This document shows, in pieces, positions 5,520-36,245 of a stretch of DNA of 47,265 nt (position 1 is its first letter; each line of letters starts with the position of its first letter). The position numbers were made by a program, and so were the translations under genes. Below the pieces are notes generated by a model. The model had not been told where the DNA came from. It was given only the letters and a program-made list of their open reading frames with translations, and did no database searches. Source of the stretch: Bacteroidota bacterium (GTDB lineage: Bacteria; Bacteroidota; Bacteroidia; B-17B0; Aurantibacillaceae); the NCBI GenBank assembly GCA_025362395.1, contig JANYGK010000089.1, forward strand, positions 1 to 47,265, written 5' to 3'.

Positions 5520-6497
5520 ATGAATACAACATCACCAAATAAGAGAGCCGTAATAGTTGGCGCTTTCGTAATACTAGGCTTGACATTTTTAATTGCCGGT
5601 ATTTTAGTCATCGGTAATATACATCAAACATTTTCCAAAAAAATGCGGGTCACCACCTTGTTTGATGATGTGAATGGATTGCAAAAAGGCAGTAACATCT
5701 GGTTTTCGGGCGTAAAAATAGGAACCGTTAAAAAGGTTGATTTTTATGGCGCTTCGCAAGTAAAAGTAATTATGAATATTGATCAGAACGCCCAACAATA
5801 CATTCGTAAAGATGCTAAAGTAAAGATCAGCTCGGATGGGTTGATCGGAAATAAAATTATTGTGATTTATGGCGGTACTTCCAAGGCAGGCCCTGTAACA
5901 GAAGATGATACACTGAGTGTTGAGAAAACATTTTCAACCGAAGACATGATGAATACCTTGCAGGAAAATAATGTGAATTTAGTTTCTATTACAAGTGACT
6001 TTAAAACGATTAGTAAAAAACTAGCCGCGGGTGAAGGCACAATTGGGCGGTTATTAAAGGATGAATCGGTTTATAAAAATATTGAAGCAACAACTATGTC
6101 TCTCAAAAATGCTTCTGACAGAGCCCAACAGCTTATGTCTTCACTAACTGTTTTTACAACTAAATTAAATAAAAAAGGAACTTTTGCTAATGATTTAGTT
6201 ACGGATACCGTTATGTTTAATTCGCTTAAATCAACCGTAAAAGAATTAAATCAAATAGCGGATACGGCGTCAGGATTTATTTCAGGATTAAAACAAGCGA
6301 GCAACAATCCTAAAACTACCATTGGTCTTTTATTGCATGATGAGGAAACAGGCGCTAATATGAAAGCCACTATAAAAAATTTAGAAACCGGTTCTCAAAA
6401 ATTGGATAAAGATTTGGAAGCCTTGCAGCATAACTTTTTATTAAGAAGGTTCTTTAAAAAGGAAGCTAAAAAAGAAGCAAAAAAAGAAAAGAAATAG
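5520..6497 (+). CDS. mlaD: MCE-domain protein (MlaD-like)
   Basis: The 325-residue protein has one N-terminal transmembrane helix (about residues 10-30). An MCE/MlaD domain follows (about 38-125), with FDDVNGLQKGSNIWFSGVKIGTVKKV as its recognisable region in two parts. The rest is a long predicted helical segment ending in a KKEAKKEAKKEKK tail. MCE proteins form periplasmic hexameric rings that carry lipid. It is longer than E. coli MlaD (about 183 residues), because of the helical C-terminal extension usual in Bacteroidota. It is the last gene of the operon and a terminator follows. Confidence 0.9.
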   Translation: MNTTSPNKRAVIVGAFVILGLTFLIAGILVIGNIHQTFSKKMRVTTLFDDVNGLQKGSNIWFSGVKIGTVKKVDFYGASQVKVIMNIDQNAQQYIRKDAKVKISSDGLIGNKIIVIYGGTSKAGPVTEDDTLSVEKTFSTEDMMNTLQENNVNLVSITSDFKTISKKLAAGEGTIGRLLKDESVYKNIEATTMSLKNASDRAQQLMSSLTVFTTKLNKKGTFANDLVTDTVMFNSLKSTVKELNQIADTASGFISGLKQASNNPKTTIGLLLHDEETGANMKATIKNLETGSQKLDKDLEALQHNFLLRRFFKKEAKKEAKKEKK

Positions 6498-27348: not shown

Positions 27349-28599
27349 ATGAGTACGCTATCCACCGTTAAATGCCCCAATTGCAAACATGAATTTCAGC
27401 CGGGAGACGCTATTTCCGCTGAGATAGAAGGTAAAATAAAAGCGCGATATGTTGAGCGTTTTAATAAAGATCAAAAAGACTTAGCAGATAAAGAACGCCT
27501 TTTAGAAAAGCAACTAGAGCTTGTAAAAAAGCAACAGGAAGATCAGGAAAGCATTATTGCAGATAAAGTCAAGCTTCAAAAGTCAGTATTAGAACAGGAA
27601 GCTATTAAAAAAGCGGCTTCTGAAATGCAAATGCAAATGGAGCTGTTAAATAAGGAGCTAACCGAAAAATCACTAAAATTAAAAGAGAGTCAAGGCAAAG
27701 AATTAGAATTTTTGTTAAAAGAAAAAGAGATAAAAAATAAAGAAGCGGAACTTGAAATTACAATTCAAAAAAAACTACTACAAGAGCGGGAGCAATTTAC
27801 AGAACAAATTAAGAGGCAGGAGAATGAACGTAATTCCTTAAAAGAAAAAGAACATCAGATGCAGATGCTGGAATTAAAAAAGCAGCTTGATGATCAAAAA
27901 AAATTAACCGAAGAAATGGTGCGAAAACAGGGGCAAGGATCTATGCAGCTGCAGGGCGAAGTACATGAATTGGCCTTAGAAGATTTGTTACGGAGCACAT
28001 TTCCGTTTGATACAGTTGAAGAAGTAGGAAAGGGAGTTAAAGGGGCGGACGCTATTCATATTATTAAAAATTCGTTAGGGCAAACCTGCGGAAAAATAAT
28101 TTACGAAAGTAAGCGTACCAAAGCTTTCAGTAACGAATGGATAGATAAGTTAAAACACGATATGCGAAACTCCCAGGCCGATCTTGCCGTAATTGTTACG
28201 GAAACAATGCCTAAGGATATGGATCGCTTTGGGATGAGAGAAGGAGTTTGGATCTGCAGCTTTTCGGAAGCGAAATCACTATCGTTTGTATTAAGAGACA
28301 GCTTAATTAAAATTTACGCGGCACAAGCCAGCCAAGAAAATAAAGGAGATAAAATGAGCATGCTGTATTCATACCTTACAGGTGTTGAATTTAAGCAACA
28401 GATAGAAGCCATTGTAGAAGGTTTTACAGAGCTTCAGGAAGGAATTGCCAAAGAAAAAAACGCGATGGCGAAAATCTGGAAAGAAAGAGAAAAACAACTT
28501 GAAAAAGTATTATTAAACACAACTAATTTTTACGGTTCGGTAAAAGGAATAGCGGGTAATGCTATATCCGATATTAAAAAACTGGAGTTGGGAGAGTAG
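27349..28599 (+). CDS. DUF2130 coiled-coil protein
   Basis: The 416-residue protein starts with a half zinc ribbon (CPNCKHEF, residues 9-16). A long coiled coil rich in Lys, Glu and Gln follows (about 30-200). The DUF2130 domain comes next (about 200-380), with EDLLRSTFPFDTVEEVGKGV and GADAIHII. The sequence D-AIHII with IIYESKRTKAF resembles the D-ExK core of PD-(D/E)xK nucleases; that is my inference. The family is widespread and its function is not established. It has an independent position with an 80-base upstream gap. Confidence 0.88.
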   Translation: MSTLSTVKCPNCKHEFQPGDAISAEIEGKIKARYVERFNKDQKDLADKERLLEKQLELVKKQQEDQESIIADKVKLQKSVLEQEAIKKAASEMQMQMELLNKELTEKSLKLKESQGKELEFLLKEKEIKNKEAELEITIQKKLLQEREQFTEQIKRQENERNSLKEKEHQMQMLELKKQLDDQKKLTEEMVRKQGQGSMQLQGEVHELALEDLLRSTFPFDTVEEVGKGVKGADAIHIIKNSLGQTCGKIIYESKRTKAFSNEWIDKLKHDMRNSQADLAVIVTETMPKDMDRFGMREGVWICSFSEAKSLSFVLRDSLIKIYAAQASQENKGDKMSMLYSYLTGVEFKQQIEAIVEGFTELQEGIAKEKNAMAKIWKEREKQLEKVLLNTTNFYGSVKGIAGNAISDIKKLELGE

Positions 28600-28632
28600 G
28601 CTTTCAATTTATAAAATAAACTAGGATAGAAG

Positions 28633-28700
28633 TTGTCACCCTGAATTTGTTTAAAGGAGTTTTTATGAGATACTGAAACTAGTTCCGCATAACGTGATCA
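28633..28700. repeat. REP-like element of the GTCACCCTGAA...GCATAACGTGA type
   Basis: A CACCCTGAATTTGTTTA half and a GAAACTAGTTCCGCATAACG half are related as imperfect reverse complements. They match in style a class of intergenic palindromes often seen in Bacteroidota. Only one copy is visible here. Confidence 0.5.
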
Positions 28701-28714
28701 ATTAAAATCATAAC

Positions 28715-29221
28715 TTACTTTTTCCAAACTACCTCATACCAGTCATTACTGCCATTTACTGAAAGCTCAAAAGCGGGGTGAGTATGTAATTTCACGATCT
28801 TATTAAAAGCATATTCACCTGCTTCTTTCAAAGCAGGGACTAAAACTTCCCAGCATTCACCATCCGAATTTTCCTCCCATTCTTTAGGCATGTTTTGATT
28901 AGTAATGGTTTTAAAATCGGTTAATTCAAAGTCGGCCGGGTTACAATTCCTGCTTACAGGCTCAAACAAATTAGCTTGTGCAATATCTCCTTCGGCTGTA
29001 AAATACTCGTGTTGTTTTTTACTCCATGTATTTGCTTCTTCCACTATAATATCCGAATTTTCTTTACTGTCAAAGCTTATAGAGCTGATAGCCCCGTTTG
29101 GGTCTGTCCATATACTTGTCGTATAAATTTCAAATTCAGGATAGCTTTCCGCTAATTCTTTTATGGCTTTATCAACCATTGCAGTCATTTCTTTAAAAAA
29201 TATATCTTGCTTAAATTTCAT
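28715..29221 (-). CDS. Hypothetical protein, 168 residues
   Basis: This acidic soluble protein has no signal peptide. The N-terminal half resembles a DUF4303-like pattern (MVDKAIKELAESYPEFEIYT, then SIWTDPNGAISSISFDSKEN) but I am not sure of the family. The C-terminal part has HTHPAFELSVNGSNDWYEV. Proteins of this kind are often immunity or contact-system related, but no toxin gene is nearby. Coding quality looks real, as the frame is complete and has normal composition. Confidence 0.7.
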   Translation of the reverse strand: MKFKQDIFFKEMTAMVDKAIKELAESYPEFEIYTTSIWTDPNGAISSISFDSKENSDIIVEEANTWSKKQHEYFTAEGDIAQANLFEPVSRNCNPADFELTDFKTITNQNMPKEWEENSDGECWEVLVPALKEAGEYAFNKIVKLHTHPAFELSVNGSNDWYEVVWKK

Positions 29222-29505
29222 ATAATAAGGGATTAAGTTAGTAAGGTGTGACGTGTTATTTATAGAAAGAAATACTACCGGATCTTTTATAAGATAATCA
29301 AAGCAAAGCTAAATGTTTCAACGACATTTACAAAGTTCAAATACCCTATGTTTTAATTGACAATATTTCAACATATACAATATGTGCGGGTTTTATATTT
29401 TGTCTCTTTATATTTATTAAACAGAGAGCCTTTGTTTTCGCAAGCATTATTAGGCATAACCCGGCAAAAAAATATTTTCTTAATTAACCCATACTGTTAA
29501 GACAC

Positions 29506-29919
29506 ATGAAAATTTTAGCTCTCGATAAAAGAGTTGAGATCATTGCAACAGAAGTGTGCGAGCCTTTTATGGTTAAGCTTCGCAGCGATGGTATTATTCA
29601 TTTACACACATCAAGCAATTTAGAATTTAATATTGAATCGCTAAAGCAATTTAATAGTGTTATGGGCAAAATGCTCAATTATAAACAGACTCCTTTATTA
29701 ATAACACTCGACGAATTTGCGATCCCTCTTGTAGAGACCCGCGTATTTTGGGCAAAAAAAGAATCCTGTCCCTATGCATTAGCCGATGCTTATGTGGCAA
29801 CTAATTTCGGACATAAATTTATCGGTAATTTTTATTTAAAGTTTAATAAGCAGGGTCGGCCTACTAAAATATTTGCAACAGAGCAGGAAGCTGTCAGTTG
29901 GCTCAGAACTTTTTTATGA
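29506..29919 (+). CDS. STAS/SEC14-like domain protein (DUF7793-type)
   Basis: The 137-residue protein has the pattern LRSDGIIHLHTSSNLEFNIE, then TPLLITLDEFAIPLVETRVF and WAKKESCPYALADAYVATN, then GNFYLKFNKQGRPTKIFATE, ending in AVSWLRTFL. I recognise this order from a conserved small-protein family of Bacteroidota that adopts a STAS/SpoIIAA-like fold. Its role is unknown. A strong bidirectional hairpin starts 4 bases after the stop. Confidence 0.72.
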   Translation: MKILALDKRVEIIATEVCEPFMVKLRSDGIIHLHTSSNLEFNIESLKQFNSVMGKMLNYKQTPLLITLDEFAIPLVETRVFWAKKESCPYALADAYVATNFGHKFIGNFYLKFNKQGRPTKIFATEQEAVSWLRTFL

Positions 29920-29922
29920 ACG

Positions 29923-29950
29923 AAAATCCGGAGATGCTCCCCGGATTTTT
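29923..29950. terminator. Bidirectional terminator between convergent genes
   Basis: AAAATCCGG (29923-29931) pairs with CCGGATTTT (29941-29949) around AGATGCTCC, with a T-rich flank after it. It separates the convergent genes at 29506-29919 and 29959-30465. Confidence 0.88.
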
Positions 29951-29958
29951 GTTTTATA

Positions 29959-30465
29959 TTATCTATGATGTCCGTAATGTCCGCCACCGCCCCCATGATA
30001 ACCTCCGTGATAACCATGATAACCTCCATAAGACCTATAACCGCCTCCCCAGCCCCAACCACGACTCCAACCCCAAGGATTGTACCCGAAGTATGGCGAA
30101 CCACCTACCCTCACATTTACTATAGGACGAGGAGTAACATAAACAGTATTACCGCTTTGTGAATAGTTAGGGTTATTATTGTTGTTATTAATGGCCTGAC
30201 TTTGAGTGTTCGCATCGTTAGTATTAGCAGGTTTAGAAAAAACATCTTTTGCCCCGTTTTTATATTCTATCACCACAACATCCGACTTGCTGATAACATA
30301 CATAGGCCCATCAGGATTTGAGGCTCTTTTGTATTTTATGTCATCTTTAGTTATTTCCATAACTTTGCCCGTTAACACATTTCCTTCTATAGTATATAAA
30401 GTATCTTGTGAAAATAAACGGGTGCTGAATAAAAAAGCGATAATTAAACATTGAATAGTTTTCAT
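29959..30465 (-). CDS. Secreted protein with Gly/His/Tyr-rich tail
   Basis: The 168-residue protein has a signal peptide ending STRLFSQ (residue 19). A small conserved domain follows (about 20-75), with LTGKVMEITKDDIKYKRASN and SDVVVIEYKNGAKDVF, a pattern common in Bacteroidota periplasmic proteins. An Asn-rich linker leads to about 45 residues of G, Y, H and W repeats such as GYHGYHGGYHGGGGGHYGHH. The tail could bind metal or aid surface adhesion, which is speculation. The function is unknown. Confidence 0.78.
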   Translation of the reverse strand: MKTIQCLIIAFLFSTRLFSQDTLYTIEGNVLTGKVMEITKDDIKYKRASNPDGPMYVISKSDVVVIEYKNGAKDVFSKPANTNDANTQSQAINNNNNNPNYSQSGNTVYVTPRPIVNVRVGGSPYFGYNPWGWSRGWGWGGGYRSYGGYHGYHGGYHGGGGGHYGHHR

Positions 30466-30640
30466 GACTTTAATTTTACTTGAAGTTACAGAGTTATACG
30501 CATCTATTAAGTTTTCGAATGTTAAAAATCTGAAATTATAAGTTATTTAACGGTATCTTTTTGAAAGTCTTGTAAGCATTCACACTCATTTTGTGAATTG
30601 TTTTATTCTTTTATAAATAAAAGATACCATTAAAGCATAT

Positions 30641-31222
30641 TTAATCGTAGGTTTTATTCAGTATCTTAAGGCTGTTAAAACAGTTGTCTGTGCCAATATC
30701 AATTTTAGTTACAGAAGAGTAATCTACCGGAATTTTAAAGGCATTTTTAAGTGGGATTTCTAATATTGCTATAATAAAAGAGCGGATTACACCGGCATGC
30801 GTAACAATGGCTACTTTTTTATAATTTTTTTTAACTAGTTCAATAATGAAATGATTGACACGATTATTCAGTTCAATGAAGCTTTCGCCATTAGGCATTT
30901 TAACAGTTACAAAATCCTGCATCCACTTGTTTAAATCTTGTTGCTCTATGGCATCCCATTTTTTCATTTCCCAATCACCAAAGTTTAATTCAAGTAATCT
31001 TTTATCAGGAATAACCATCGGCTCTTTAGTTTTAATAAGCTCTGCCAATTGATGACATCTGCTTAACGGGCTTGAGTAAACAACATCAATGTCCTTAGGA
31101 AGATAATGCAGTAACTTTTCTGATTCAGTATTGAACAAGTCAGCCAAAGGAATATCGGATTGCCCATAGCAAATTCCTTTTTCAATTTTTGGTGTAGTAT
31201 GTCGGATTAAATAAACTTCCAT
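30641..31222 (-). CDS. cobC: Alpha-ribazole phosphatase-like histidine phosphatase
   Basis: The 193-residue protein is a histidine phosphatase. The phosphohistidine motif is LIRHTTPKIEKGICYGQSDI (His8), Arg is in SSPLSRC, Glu is in LLELNFGDWE, and the second His is in VTHAGVI. It overlaps cobS by 16 bases, and this supports assignment to removing phosphate from alpha-ribazole-5'-phosphate or adenosylcobalamin-phosphate. It is the last gene of a three-gene cobalamin operon. Confidence 0.88.
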   Translation of the reverse strand: MEVYLIRHTTPKIEKGICYGQSDIPLADLFNTESEKLLHYLPKDIDVVYSSPLSRCHQLAELIKTKEPMVIPDKRLLELNFGDWEMKKWDAIEQQDLNKWMQDFVTVKMPNGESFIELNNRVNHFIIELVKKNYKKVAIVTHAGVIRSFIIAILEIPLKNAFKIPVDYSSVTKIDIGTDNCFNSLKILNKTYD

Positions 31223-31968
31223 AAAATTATAAAAAATAAATAAAAACCAACTTCACATACCTGTTGTGTTGCTCCAAGACAGTCGCCTGTGTAGCCACCA
31301 ATCCATTTGGTAAAATATCGTCCGAGAAATACTTTAATAAAATAAACAGGAATTAAAAGAAGAAAAACATATTGGCTTTTAAAAACGAGAAGAGCTGTAA
31401 CCCCAAATAATAGAGCAATCACAAAGTTACTCGAGCTTAAAGATTTAGCAACCGGTTTTGCCTTACTGTCTTCATTTTCTCTCACATAATGATGCGTTAA
31501 AATAAATGATGCCGCACAAAAACGACTGTAGGCATGAGCCGAAAAGATAACTAGCGGAATAAACTTACTGTCTATACTTAATAACAGATAAAACTTAAAC
31601 AGAAAAATAAAAATTAATCCAATAGCGCCATAGGCTCCAACACGGCTATCTTTCATAATATCCAGAATTTTTTCCTTAGTCCATCCGCCTCCAAAGCCAT
31701 CGCATACATCAGCAAATCCATCTTCGTGAAAAGCCCCGGTAATTAAGATCCCGGAAACAAAAGATAGGATTAGGGAAACTTCTTTACTTAAATAAAATGA
31801 AGCTAAATAGAATACTAAAGCGCAAGCGCCACCAACTATCCAACCAATTAAAGGAAAATAACGGGTTGCTTTATTTAAATATTCCGCATCATGGTTTATC
31901 CATTTAGGGCAAGGGATACGGGTATAAAACATCAAAGCGGTAAAAAATATTTTTATTTCTTTTTTCAT
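31207..31968 (-). CDS. cobS: Adenosylcobinamide-GDP ribazoletransferase
   Basis: The protein is 253 residues from the ATG at 31968. The longer frame adds 16 residues overlapping the upstream gene. CobS signatures are FYTRIPCPKW near the start and the acidic GAFHEDGFADVCDGFGGG, then MKDSRVGAYGAIG. Six or so hydrophobic helices fit an inner membrane enzyme. It joins adenosylcobinamide-GDP and alpha-ribazole phosphate. The upstream BluB-CobT stop is 1 base before its start. Confidence 0.93.
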   Translation of the reverse strand: MKKEIKIFFTALMFYTRIPCPKWINHDAEYLNKATRYFPLIGWIVGGACALVFYLASFYLSKEVSLILSFVSGILITGAFHEDGFADVCDGFGGGWTKEKILDIMKDSRVGAYGAIGLIFIFLFKFYLLLSIDSKFIPLVIFSAHAYSRFCAASFILTHHYVRENEDSKAKPVAKSLSSSNFVIALLFGVTALLVFKSQYVFLLLIPVYFIKVFLGRYFTKWIGGYTGDCLGATQQVCEVGFYLFFIILWKFI

Positions 31969-31969
31969 A

Positions 31970-33652
31970 TTAATTTTTATTTGATACTTCCGCACTTTCA
32001 AAACTTGACATTTCATTTAGGAAAACAACTGCCGATTGAATAATCGGAAACGCTATTGCACACCCGGTTCCTTCTCCAAGTCGCATATCCAATTGTAATA
32101 TTTCTTTTACTTCTAAGTAGTTTAAAAGTATTCTATGTCCCTTCTCTGCGGAACAATGGCAGAAAATTGCATTCCGTTTTATAGCAGGGTTAATTTTATA
32201 GGCAATCAAAAACGCGACACTGCTAATGAAGCCATCCACGAGGATTATCATATTGTTGTTATACGCTTCCAACATTCCCCCTGCCATCTGTAAAATTTCA
32301 AACCCCCCGAAATAAGATAGGATGCTGTACAATTCCTTATCACTTTTATAATTGCTAAGAGCTTGTTTGAGTATACCATGTTTTTTTGAAAACCTCTTTT
32401 CACTTATACCCGTTCCGTTTCCAATACATTGCTCAATTGGAATATTACACAATAAGCTCATTAAAACAGACGCGCTTGATGTATTTCCGATGCCCATCTC
32501 ACCAAAACCAATAGTGTTGCATTCTGTGCCAATTATTTTAGTTACAACTTCAGCCCCTTTATTTAAGCATTCATGCACTTGGCTTAAACTCATAGCAGGA
32601 TCATACAAAAACGATTGTGTTCCTTTTCCAATCTTATTATTTATTAATGATGCATTGAATGGAAAATCGTAATTCACTCCTGCATCAACTATGACCAGTT
32701 CTATACTATGTTGTTTACAAAAGACATTAATAGCTGCACCGCCTGATGAAAAATTATCAACCATTTGCCGGGTTACGTCCTGTGGATAAGCGCTTACCCC
32801 ATGTTGTGCAATACCATGATCGGCGGCAAATACAACTATATGAGGCCTGTTTATTTTAGGTTCTTTACTGCTGAATACTTTTCCGATTTGTAACGCAATT
32901 TTCTCTAAAACACCTAAAGAACCAAGTGGTTTTGTTTTATTATCAATGATAAATTGCAACTCTTCGCTAATTGATTTGTTATTATTTTGGAAATAATTTT
33001 TACTATTCTGATTGCAATCCAATATTTCCTTATTCAAACAATTAATTTCTGAAACCATTGGCTCCTTCAATTTGTCTTTCCATTTTAATTGTTGCAACAT
33101 GGGTTGATTCTCATAATCAGTTGCGGGTTTCCCTATACAAAAATATCCGAGGGGCTCCATCTCTTCCGGTAATCCAAGTATTTTTTTAAATTGATAATAG
33201 TTGAGTATGGATACCCAACCCATAGAATAACCTTGTTCAGTTAATGACAACCAAATATTTTGTACTGCACAAACTGAACTAAATTTCAATGTTTCATTAC
33301 TTGCGATAGTACCGATAGAAAAATTATTCAATACTGATCTGTCATAGCATATTACTAATCCAACCGGAGCATCAATAATGGCTTCCAACTTTAAGGACGA
33401 GTATGCTGTTTTTTGAGACTCGTTATTAATTTTCCGATAAGCCTTTTGATTGTATTCTTCAAATAATTTTTTAATCTCCTGTTTTATTTCTGCTGATTTG
33501 ATAATGTAGTATCGCGTAGCATCTGTTAGCCCAACGGATGGAGCACTATGTCCTGCTTGCAAAGCTTTCTTTATAACATTATCGGGTACGACTTCACTTT
33601 TAAAATGTCGAGTATCACGTCTTAATATAAATATTTCTTCCAGCGTTGCCAT
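31970..33652 (-). CDS. Fused BluB-CobT: DMB synthase and DMB phosphoribosyltransferase
   Basis: The 560-residue protein joins two cobalamin enzymes. Residues 1 to about 200 are BluB, a flavin nitroreductase-fold enzyme that makes 5,6-dimethylbenzimidazole from FMN (RRDTRHFKSE, GHSAPSVGLTDATRYY, and the end GYFCIGKPATDYENQP). Residues about 222-560 are CobT: KPLGSLG near 241, ADHGIAQHGVSAYPQDVTRQ near 277, GEMGIGNT near 384, and the catalytic Glu in RLGEGTGCA. The product of the first domain is the substrate of the second. No cobU or corrin-ring genes are in the window, so this organism may salvage cobinamide. I saw no cobalamin riboswitch upstream. Confidence 0.92.
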   Translation of the reverse strand: MATLEEIFILRRDTRHFKSEVVPDNVIKKALQAGHSAPSVGLTDATRYYIIKSAEIKQEIKKLFEEYNQKAYRKINNESQKTAYSSLKLEAIIDAPVGLVICYDRSVLNNFSIGTIASNETLKFSSVCAVQNIWLSLTEQGYSMGWVSILNYYQFKKILGLPEEMEPLGYFCIGKPATDYENQPMLQQLKWKDKLKEPMVSEINCLNKEILDCNQNSKNYFQNNNKSISEELQFIIDNKTKPLGSLGVLEKIALQIGKVFSSKEPKINRPHIVVFAADHGIAQHGVSAYPQDVTRQMVDNFSSGGAAINVFCKQHSIELVIVDAGVNYDFPFNASLINNKIGKGTQSFLYDPAMSLSQVHECLNKGAEVVTKIIGTECNTIGFGEMGIGNTSSASVLMSLLCNIPIEQCIGNGTGISEKRFSKKHGILKQALSNYKSDKELYSILSYFGGFEILQMAGGMLEAYNNNMIILVDGFISSVAFLIAYKINPAIKRNAIFCHCSAEKGHRILLNYLEVKEILQLDMRLGEGTGCAIAFPIIQSAVVFLNEMSSFESAEVSNKN

Positions 33653-33864
33653 AAATGTTAGAATTGTTGTTTTATAAAGGTATTAAATCGCAGAAATAAA
33701 AATATAATCCTTTTCATCTATACAAATGGAATTATAATAGTCATTTTTTGAGCCCTTAGATTTAGGATATTCAAGATACACTATTTTTTACATTTTCGCT
33801 ACATACGTCTACGGTGTCAGGCAAATCCTTATAAAGGATTGGTCAATAATTCTTCCTAAAAAAT

Positions 33865-34053
33865 TTATTCAAAAACGTACCGTTGACCACCGGGATTTTG
33901 AACTGTACCTGCAACATAAATTCTTTCTTGTTAAGGGAGTACTTCCATAATACCGGTTGCTCCCGAATTTTTAATTTGTTCATTTGGAAATAACGAAGAT
34001 ACTCCTGTAAATGTCCATTGTTGGAGCTTTCCAAGTATAACTTGCGCTTTCAT
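33865..34053 (-). pseudogene. Possible degraded small ORF interrupted by one stop
   Basis: An ATG at 34053 opens 40 codons (MKAQVILGKLQQW...), which end at a TAA at 33931-33933. The same frame continues for 20 more codons with a credible segment, IYVAGTVQNPGGQRYVFE, and ends at 33865. A single C-to-T change (CAA to TAA) would explain the break. No family is recognised, and chance is possible. Confidence 0.28.
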
Positions 34054-34134
34054 TAAATTAATTTTACTAGTTTTTTAATGGTTTATAATGTAAATGTAGG
34101 TAAAAGTAAGCATTTGCATAAACTCTATTTAAGC

Positions 34135-34158
34135 AAAAAACCCCTCTAATGGCGGGGC
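34135..34158 (-). terminator. Minus-strand terminator next to the distal att repeat
   Basis: On the minus strand, CCCC and GGGG form a short stem across a nine-base loop, followed by six Ts. It lies about 38 bases downstream (in minus-strand sense) of the att copy at 34196-34215. I infer that it was the original terminator of the tRNA-Arg gene before the element was inserted. Confidence 0.6.
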
Positions 34159-34195
34159 TTCTCTGTGTTTTCGGTACTTTGTAATTTCTGTTATT

Positions 34196-34215
34196 GTGAC
34201 CCCGATTTTATCGAA
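34196..34215 (-). repeat. Distal attachment-site copy (tRNA-Arg 3' end)
   Basis: Twelve bases match the tRNA-Arg 3' end exactly, and TTCGA (minus sense) is retained at a shift of one base. It is in the same orientation as the tRNA and is followed on the minus strand by a terminator. Confidence 0.7.
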
Positions 34216-34275
34216 ATTGGAAAAAAGCGGTACATTGAAAATATAAAGCATAGCCCGTAAGCTGTATTTATATTT

Positions 34276-34306
34276 ATCCCGAACCTGAATGCTTCGGGAT
34301 TTTTTT
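34276..34306 (+). terminator. Orphan plus-strand terminator
   Basis: ATCCCGAA (34276-34283) pairs with TTCGGGAT (34293-34300), followed by seven Ts. No plus-strand gene precedes it. It may be left from a deleted cargo gene of the element, or it may end an unannotated small RNA. Confidence 0.75.
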
Positions 34307-34473
34307 ACATTTTTTTTGGCAGGAGTAATAATAAATAATTTTGACTTTGATACACGTAATTTTACGTGATATTCAAAAATAAATTTTAAAGTTGCAATAC
34401 TAAAATATACCGGAAAGTCTACTTTTTCCTACAATACAAATAATTTCATATTTTTATACTAAAATTAAGTAAC

Positions 34474-34662
34474 ATGAAACTTTTACAAATGAGATACTCA
34501 CCAATTTACTTCTTTATTACAGCTTCAATCTTTATTTTTTTGTATGCTTTCCTCGTTGCAGGATATAGCAATAAAGTGCCTTCTTTAGCTTTAATCGGAA
34601 TAGCAAATTTTGTTTTAGGCATAATTTCTTTTTTCTTAAAAAGTAAACGAAAAACTATTTAA
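34474..34662 (+). CDS. Small two-helix membrane protein, 62 residues
   Basis: The frame encodes two hydrophobic helices (about residues 10-30 and 37-55) and a basic end KSKRKTI. An internal ATG at codon 6 is an alternative start. A terminator follows 16 bases after the stop, which supports expression. It lies inside the remnant element, so it may be its last surviving cargo gene. No family is recognised. Confidence 0.55.
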   Translation: MKLLQMRYSPIYFFITASIFIFLYAFLVAGYSNKVPSLALIGIANFVLGIISFFLKSKRKTI

Positions 34663-34678
34663 AATTAGATTATCATTT

Positions 34679-34707
34679 AAAGGGCTGTTAACAAGCGGCC
34701 CTTTTTT
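34679..34707 (+). terminator. Terminator after the 62-residue membrane protein
   Basis: AAAGGGC (34679-34685) pairs with GCCCTTT (34698-34704), and an inner TGTTAACA palindrome lies in the loop. A T run follows. Confidence 0.8.
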
Positions 34708-34747
34708 GTTTCAAGATTTTTTACTAACTATTGGTAATAGTAAATCT

Positions 34748-35917
34748 TCAATTTTGTAATAGAATGTTTCTTTGCTTCATTTCGTTTACTAAAGAATTTA
34801 TATTTTTTTCTACGTAATATAGTTCTGTTGTTCTTACGGTTAATGTCCGAGCATTAATGAAACATTTAGAAGCGTCCATCCTTCTGATATTTTAAGAGTT
34901 GCAAATGTTTTCCGAGCCAACGTGTATGAACCCATTTTTTAAACCTATTAAAGCCGCAATTTTCTCTAATAAACTGTTATAAGTACTGTTACAGTACTTT
35001 GGAAGGTTAAAGCTGTATTTAGTTAGAATAACATCCCCCATTTCGTCGTAAGGCACAAAAAACGGATTCCCTCACCCTTTGCTTCGTTTACCTTTTATTA
35101 CTTTCCCTTCGGAAGTATTTTCAATACTAAAGTCGCCCCAAATATCACTGTAGCTTAAGCCTGTGGCAACTTGAAATAAAAATAAATCCCTTACTTTACT
35201 AAGCATCGGACTTTTGAAATCAAAAATAATAAGATCCGGCAATTCATTTTCCACAATCGGAACGGGCTTTTTAATTTTGTCGCGCTCACCTTCAAAATAT
35301 AATAAGCAGTGAGCTTTAATAACTCCGTTTTTAACACCCCATTGCATGGCGTTACGGTAAAAACTAACATGCCTGTTTGCAGCTGTTTTATTTCGAGTAC
35401 CTCTGCTTAATTTAAACCACTCGATAAACTTTTGAGCTTCAACTTCGTTAAAGTCACTTACATAAGTTTTTTTATTTACAAAATATTCTTTGAGGTGTTT
35501 TAAAAATCGCTCATGTATGGCAATTGTTTTATTGTCTAATACCTCTTCGATAATTTCCCACTCAATAAACTTGTCTATTACCTTGTATATTGTAACCGGT
35601 GCTTCCTTAACTATTGGTGTGTGATAGGTTTGTATTACTTTCTGTGCATTTAGATCTTGATCCTCGTATAATAATGCAATTGTTTTGATTTTATATTTAA
35701 TCCGCTCACACAATAAATTGATATAATTAGTTTTTTCGTCTGTTTGACCGTTATAAATTTGTGAATTTTGGTTCCATTCAGAAGGGTTAATCTTTTCTTT
35801 AGTACTAAATTCACTTTGATTTTTATTTATGTAAACCCTGCAATACAGGCTGTAGCTGTTAGCTTTATCGTTGTTATTTCTTGGGAAAAATGTTACTTCC
35901 GGCATGTTGTTAATCAT
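34748..35917 (-). pseudogene. Tyrosine recombinase (site-specific integrase) pseudogene
   Basis: Read as a whole this is a full-length integrase of about 390 codons of the Bacteroidota tyrosine recombinase type. The first 281 codons are intact: an Arm-type N-terminus, a SAM-like core-binding domain, and FLFQVATGLSYSDIWGDF at the start of the catalytic domain. A TGA at 35072-35074 interrupts it. The same frame then continues as GNPFFVPYDEMGDVIL and FNLPKYCNSTYNSLLEKIA. A shift near 34930-34945 gives TLARKTFATLKISEGWTLL and SLMLGH. A further one-base loss near 34840 restores VRTTELYYVEKN, which includes the catalytic Tyr region at 34814-34819. It is therefore inactive by at least three lesions. 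Confidence 0.9.
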
Positions 35918-35921
35918 AGGG

Positions 35922-35956
35922 CGTGAGTGTAGGAGAGCTTTCCTATTATACTCACG
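35922..35956. repeat. Inverted repeat just upstream of the integrase pseudogene
   Basis: CGTGAGT at 35922-35928 and ACTCACG at 35950-35956 are perfect inverted repeats. TAGGA/TCCTA pairs continue inward. It could be an integrase or excisionase binding site or an operator, though the sequence alone does not show which. Confidence 0.5.
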
Positions 35957-36009
35957 TTAAGGGTAGGTAATTGTGTCTATTTTTAGGGTTTATGAACATC
36001 CGTAAACTC

Positions 36010-36034
36010 AAAACCCCCTGTTTAAAGGGGGTTT
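36010..36034. terminator. Hairpin downstream of tRNA-Arg
   Basis: AAACCCCC and GGGGGTTT pair across TGTTTAAA, with a TTTT run on the minus strand. It would now end the tRNA-Arg transcript. It lies on the element side of the att site, so it was probably brought in by the element. Confidence 0.72.
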
Positions 36035-36054
36035 ATAAGGGAGAGTTAACTACG

Positions 36055-36128
36055 TGACCCCGATTGGATTCGAACCAATGGCCCACAGCTTAGAAGGCTG
36101 TTGCTCTATCCAGCTGAGCTACGGGACC
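36055..36128 (-). tRNA. tRNA-Arg (anticodon TCT)
   Basis: The minus strand folds as a 74-base tRNA. The acceptor GGTCCCG pairs with CGGGGTC (two G-U pairs). The anticodon stem ACAGC/GCTGT holds the loop CTTCTAA, so the anticodon is TCT. The T loop TTCGAAT is canonical. Its 3' end is duplicated at 34196-34207, so it served as an integration target and remains intact. Confidence 0.96.
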
Positions 36129-36245
36129 AATACTGCCTCATACGTGAGACAAATTTGGAATGCGAATTTAAGGATTTTTTTCAATCTCACGGTTACTTTT
36201 TTAAATACTTTATTTCCGGCAATATTTTGGTATTTTTAACGCTTT

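Follow-up and report, generated by a model that had tools for sequence, protein, structure and literature searches.

Probable tandem accretion and decay of two tyrosine-integrase elements at a tRNA-Arg gene of a Bacteroidota bacterium

Results

The tRNA-Arg gene and its terminal repeat

The window analyzed here is a stretch of 47,265 nucleotides from a Bacteroidota bacterium (assembly GCA_025362395.1, contig JANYGK010000089.1), and the locus under study borders a tRNA-Arg (TCT) gene on the minus strand, placed at 36054-36128 by ARAGORN and at 36055-36128 by Rfam (RF00005), whose only hits in the window at gathering scores were two tRNAs. The last 12 nucleotides of this gene, GTGACCCCGATT, are present on the plus strand both at 36054-36065 and at 34196-34207, confirming the exact repeat that a first-pass annotation of this DNA had reported. 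That annotation also placed the pentamer TCGAA behind both copies; the pentamer occurs 3' of each, at differing offsets of +3 and +4 after the 12 nucleotides, and the exact repeat is therefore 12 nucleotides long. The same length is the longest exact match between the last 30 nucleotides of the tRNA gene and 33901-36053. It was reached in 2 of 2000 dinucleotide shuffles of this segment, and in 2 of 500 for 28601-36053, figures that leave aside both the exact start of the repeat at the last base of the tRNA and its spacing to the integrase start. A repeat of this kind is unlikely to have arisen by chance. When up to two mismatches are allowed, the 12-mer has two more matches in the window, at 5642 and 14019, where 1.7 are expected by chance.

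Elements mobilized by tyrosine integrases and carrying a copy of a tRNA end recombine at that end, restore the tRNA, and leave a repeat at their far boundary. The restored end is then open to another element, whose insertion generates tandem elements that share a repeat. We infer that the copy at 34196-34207 acted as an attachment site.

An integrase pseudogene beside the tRNA defines element A

An integrase pseudogene on the minus strand (34748-35917) reads away from the tRNA, as the first-pass annotation had it, with 136 rather than 137 nucleotides separating the tRNA from its start codon. Its main frame, which begins at 35917 and ends with a stop at 34750-34748, comprises 389 codons, equal to an intact integrase encoded on contig C55 of the same genome; a further stop lies within it at 35074-35072. 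The open reading frame upstream of this stop (35072-35917) contains the Arm-DNA-bind_5 and Phage_int_SAM_5 domains above Pfam cut-offs, and the main frame is matched at E 8e-24 by a profile of five integrases from the genus, in a search of three sequences. We take these two domains to mark the IntCTnDOT group of integrases, to which integrase A would accordingly belong. The conserved ARKTFAT...LGH box, which presumably carries the second catalytic arginine together with the LGH motif, falls outside the main frame, near 34930-34843, while TTELYYVEK, which we take to be a tyrosine-box-like motif, is back in the main frame after the out-of-frame segment. Since the frame is left and then regained, at least three lesions are needed; an assembly error is conceivable and would need to have happened more than once. 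Box I reads TGLSYSD, without the usual arginine, a residue that is described as more weakly conserved and not always present in the IntCTnDOT group (PMC8138268). With its stop and its out-of-frame segment the gene is not intact, and element A is accordingly a remnant rather than an active element.

Element A thus combines an integrase gene beside a tRNA 3' end, reading away from it, with a tRNA-end repeat at its far boundary, and for 34208-36053 it is well supported that a tyrosine-integrase element entered at the 3' end of tRNA-Arg and then decayed. The copy of the repeat within the tRNA marks the integrase end of element A and the copy at 34196-34207 its distal end; no k-mer of 9 or more nucleotides is common to the two ends of the element. 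Two terminator-like hairpins were recognized as inverted repeats, one just past the tRNA (36011-36034, minus strand, folding energy -16.5 kcal/mol) and one near the distal end (34276-34300, plus strand, -11.0 kcal/mol). Between the distal hairpin and the integrase lies a 62-codon open reading frame (34474-34662, plus strand), which matches no Pfam or PHROG family and, judged by eye from its hydrophobicity, likely encodes a small membrane protein. Homologues were found in two of the 87 genomes of the order, as a copy on contig C61 of the same genome (69% amino acid identity) and as one in the genus relative G019 (47%). The DNA flanking this reading frame and the C61 copy (L006:4106-4303) is also alike, with 71% identity over about 320 nucleotides. 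The reading frame may be cargo of the element or a later arrival. It is plausible that element A has lost nearly all of its cargo, leaving a remnant that is now about 1.85 kb.

Five matches to integrase A (E <=0.001) were found in four of the 19 genus relatives, at 21-26% identity, and all five adjoin tRNA genes (Ser, Pro, and Asp three times), start 161-299 nucleotides past the tRNA 3' end, and read away from it. The relative in G006 and one of the two in G007 look near-identical, sharing their first 50 residues and having flanks that are almost alike, so that the five tRNA-linked genes do not amount to five independent cases. In the 1.7-5.6 kb searched past these genes, no tRNA-end repeat of 10 or more nucleotides was found. 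Closer relatives of integrase A were absent at E 1e-15 from the other 86 genomes of the order, and pattern-based scans of genome contigs and viral contigs, which reach close relatives only, gave no match.

The left flank resembles the integrase end of a prophage in the same genome

A search of the organism's own genome revealed that the sequence to the left of the distal repeat (34028-34157) is 77% identical over 130 nucleotides (E 1e-17) to the stretch of contig C55 lying between the 3' end of a tRNA-Lys gene and the intact 389-residue integrase. The alignment spans a terminator, the leader, and the first integrase codons. On the window side it includes a terminator-like hairpin (34135-34158, minus strand, folding energy -13.0 kcal/mol), a tandem arm-like repeat (34063-34084, minus strand), and, by nucleotide homology to the C55 gene, the start codon and first approximately nine codons of an integrase, integrase B, which is then cut off (34028-34053, minus strand). 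The arm-like repeat differs at 2 of 22 positions from AAACTATTAAAAAACTATTAAA, a 22-nucleotide repeat found in tandem at both ends of the C55 element; these repeats probably represent arm-type integrase sites. The distance from the tRNA-end sequence to the integrase start is likewise similar, being 142 nucleotides for the flank, which we call element B, 140 for the C55 element, and 136 for element A. Additionally, in our own reading of the acceptor stems, the window repeat and the C55 repeat both end at tRNA base C74.

The C55 element is a prophage of about 49 kb (C55:12591-61537), in which 16 nucleotides of the tRNA-Lys end recur at C55:61522-61537 and mark the far end. The genes behind its integrase, read in the first 20 kb, include a gpA-type terminase and a minor tail protein. 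This prophage (L051, L052, L115) is apparently intact, and by eye a terminator lies beyond its far end. Its integrase has one viral relative at 54% identity, and all 62 matching phage records are below 60%.

On the strength of the leader homology and the spacing, the repeat at 34196 most probably marks the integrase end of an older element, B, and now also serves as the far end of element A, and position 34196 looks, from sequence comparison, like the junction of the two. The hairpin at 34135-34158, which the first-pass annotation had assigned to the host side of an empty site, is correspondingly best regarded as part of a C55-like integrase-end leader. Two elements, each with an integrase remnant of its own, would thus share one tRNA-end repeat, element B being recognized by leader homology and approximately nine codons. 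By protein comparison alone integrase B does not match the C55 integrase significantly (E 7.7), so its identification rests on these codons together with the homologous leader. The integrases of element A and of the C55/B type are distantly related, and the two integrase leaders differ.

Within the 87 genomes of the order the element B leader matched only C55, apart from three matches of 32-36 nucleotides, and viral contigs contained no match to a degenerate pattern built from the B arm and leader. Neither a third tRNA-end copy at the outer boundary of element B nor a second arm repeat marking its far end was found; the best other match to the tRNA end between positions 26 and 36 kb of the window has three mismatches and occurs at several places, a level expected by chance. 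A deletion into the adjoining btuB-like gene may have removed the outer repeat.

The tRNA-Arg site varies among genus relatives

The tRNA-Arg gene and the glycosyltransferase gene to its right are present together in 16 of the 19 genus relatives, with matches whose limit falls no more than three bases from the tRNA 3' end. The match is in two pieces in G007, and G003, G005, and G010 gave no such match or only other tRNA-like hits. The left flanks of these 16 relatives, in which open reading frames were compared up to 9 kb out (71 nucleotides in G014, 313 in G001, 556 in G016, and at least 2.5 kb in the rest), showed none of the genes that lie left of the locus in the window. The same flanks contain no tRNA-end repeat of 12 or more nucleotides, the longest being 11. 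No true empty site of this tRNA-Arg was found among the genus relatives, and a tRNA end next to a terminator of the 34135-34158 type was seen only as the paralogue at tRNA-Lys on C55.

The left flanks of G002 and G017 are 77% identical over 385 nucleotides and carry a DUF1801 gene directly beside the tRNA (identified by Pfam in G002), an arrangement that may represent the ancestral site. In G009 tRNA-Arg lies about 7.6 kb away from a gene resembling this DUF1801 gene, and G009 and G012 have in common 202 nucleotides beside the tRNA at 93.6% identity. The DUF1801-like gene of the window's genome lies on contig C19, away from tRNA-Arg, indicating that rearrangement as well as insertion has happened. 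The G002 gene block on the tRNA side is scattered in this genome over contigs C36, C109, and C19, with weaker hits elsewhere, and the sequence beyond position 28599 of the window varies among the relatives examined (an anchor gene was found at 10 of 12 loci). As a result, synteny cannot date the insertion.

Several other genes were observed at this site. Beside tRNA-Arg, G009 carries Couple_hipA and HipA_C domains on separate open reading frames (L038:13199-14575), G015 has a HipA_C reading frame (L048:1093-2112), and G019 (L049) has a HipA-type gene recognized by sequence likeness only. G006 encodes a large serine recombinase (L037:1832-3427) whose reading frame runs 83 nucleotides into the tRNA, similar to the overlap of dsiB with ssrA reported for Dehalococcoides (PMC3146451). 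A short sequence at 28633-28693 of the window recurs at several places across the genomes of the genus as a dispersed repeat.

The probable element B ends against a truncated vitamin B12 gene cluster

To the left of the cut-off integrase B lies a btuB-like scrap of 43 codons with one stop (33871-33999, minus strand), which is 44% identical (E 1e-6) to part of a TonB receptor gene at L137:259-387 and resembles its plug region. The L137 gene carries the Pfam Plug and beta-barrel domains; by itself, the scrap matched nothing in Pfam, even at E 1, or in PHROG. The scrap is followed on the same strand by three intact open reading frames identified by NCBIfam: a bluB-cobT fusion (31970-33652, BluB and CobT equivalogs), cobS (31207-32016), and cobC, encoding alpha-ribazole phosphatase (30641-31222). 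No cobalamin riboswitch was detected in 33500-36200 in an Rfam search at E up to 1.

L137, a contig of a named Bacteroidetes metagenome-assembled genome (JABDFU010000004.1), holds the closest bluB-cobT fusion found (70%) within the gene order TonB receptor, DUF6580, periplasmic binding protein, cobU, bluB-cobT, cobS, and cobC-like, the last three assigned by similarity to the window genes. The window retains the plug scrap, bluB-cobT, cobS, and cobC of an order of this type. A search for CobU family members found none in the genome that contains the window but gave hits in 6 of 14 control genomes, and the B12 lower-ligand pathway of this genome therefore looks incomplete. The missing genes and the missing outer end of element B would both be accounted for by a deletion that ran from early in integrase B into the btuB-like gene.

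The distribution of these genes is uneven. Apart from a single weak and partial match in G016, a protein search with bluB-cobT was negative in the 19 genus relatives. CobT occurs in 5 of the 87 genomes of the order including this one, and the fusion only here, the other four being without a BluB part; in Flavobacterium, by contrast, such fusions are common. In four genomes from a different genus of the family (L133-L136), cobT, cobS, and cobC follow the same order as in the window, with cobS 72-89% identical to the window gene and the adjoining cobT parts only 53-60%. From these comparisons the B12 cluster may be a patchwork of different ages, part of which may be old in the family. The proposal that the whole cluster is absent from the genus was dropped: bluB-cobT alone was searched for in all 19 relatives, and one of them, G004, has a piece of cobS at a contig edge (68% over 38 residues).

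We considered whether element B, or a mobile element beside it, brought the cobalamin uptake and lower-ligand cluster, or at least bluB-cobT, into this lineage through the tRNA-Arg site, decay then stranding a part of it, so that bluB-cobT, cobS, and cobC would remain while cobU and most of the btuB-like gene were lost. The near absence of the fusion from the 19 genus relatives and the presence of CobT in only 4 of the 86 other genomes of the order count in favor of such cargo, a proposal weakened by a cobS that is 72-89% identical in another genus and partly present in G004. On balance we consider this origin of the cluster doubtful. A profile search at E 1e-6 found no integrase near bluB-cobT in 80 named loci, a second search at E 1 found none in the same loci (the C55 integrase, also a row of the profile, served as positive control), and no tRNA gene was found in the 8 of these 80 loci that were scanned.

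Discussion

The arrangement at this locus is best accounted for by tandem accretion at tRNA-Arg, in which at least two tyrosine-integrase elements, the older B and then A, inserted and decayed; we give this reading a probability of roughly 0.8. Element B, whose integrase leader resembles the one in the C55 tRNA-Lys prophage, would have inserted first at the 3' end of tRNA-Arg. Element A, whose integrase is of a distantly related type, would then have inserted at the restored tRNA end and displaced element B, giving the order tRNA, element A, tRNA-end repeat, element B. Decay of element A would have left its two 12-nucleotide ends, a broken full-length integrase gene, one small open reading frame, and terminators, whereas that of element B would have left the terminator, the arm-like sites, and the first approximately nine integrase codons, which a deletion would have joined to the btuB-like fragment upstream of bluB-cobT. 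Both the order of insertion, B before A, and the deletion are deduced from the present arrangement and are probable rather than observed.

The first-pass annotation had described one decayed element, a description that holds for 34208-36053 and is best revised at the left flank, where a second element's leader appears to lie. A history in which element A alone inserted into a plain host site, everything left of 34196 being host DNA, agrees with the repeat, the tRNA, and the broken integrase, and with the metabolic genes that follow leftwards from 33652; this flank, however, matches a prophage integrase leader down to its start codon and tandem repeat, lies at the distance from a tRNA end that such a leader should have, and was seen in 0 of the 16 relatives with the same tRNA. 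An insertion of element A alone is therefore already disfavored and, in our estimate, improbable. Alternatively, one composite element with two integrase genes could have arrived in a single insertion, with the 34196 repeat internal to it. The two integrases do face the same way, and a review of such elements regards the arrival of a tandem formed beforehand as possible (PMC5704250), but the tandem must then have formed elsewhere first and the two integrase leaders differ, which makes this course of events decidedly improbable. That the left repeat is instead the leftover of a duplicated tRNA-Arg gene is hardly credible, for although similarity extends loosely into the T-loop, where TCGAA is found in both copies, no anticodon or D-arm sequence is seen beyond the left repeat, a single tRNA is called there, and the distance between the repeat and an integrase start is that of an attachment site, as it is for the C55 prophage.

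Tandem accretion with decay is a known kind of structure, and the locus described here is a new instance of it, an ordinary genome fossil. It illustrates that more history may lie behind a short repeat and a broken integrase than is apparent, in this case two insertions at one tRNA followed by a deletion into metabolic genes, and how an intact prophage in the same genome can be the key to reading an older scar. Because the 3' neighbors of tRNA-Arg vary across the genus, this gene is also a useful site at which to follow mobile-element turnover in a little-studied group.

The closest counterpart of element B is the C55 prophage, to which it corresponds in leader, terminator, tandem repeat, start codon, and spacing, and from which it differs in that the prophage occupies tRNA-Lys, has a 16-nucleotide core, and retains a complete integrase and phage genes. 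Integrase A resembles the integrases of NBU1 and the IntCTnDOT group in its arm-binding and SAM-like domains and in its use of a tRNA 3' end (PMC8138268), the target of NBU1 being the 3' end of tRNA-Leu (PMC5704250). In contrast to those elements, element A has no remaining mobilization genes, and its integrase is only 21-26% identical to the genus relatives. The tandem islands at ssrA of Dehalococcoides are, like those in the window, stacked behind one RNA gene and bounded by short repeats of its 3' end, and some of them are without any integration module; they comprise many islands with serine-type (Ccr-like) integrases and 20-nucleotide repeats (PMC3146451), whereas the window holds two remnants with tyrosine integrases and a 12-nucleotide repeat. 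Finally, element A is a candidate CIME (cis-mobilizable element), with no working integrase or transfer genes and both ends kept. In CIME tandems a first element decays and another then inserts, so that, as in the window, a decayed element keeping both ends adjoins another element at the same gene end (PMC5704250); the window differs in that both elements have decayed.
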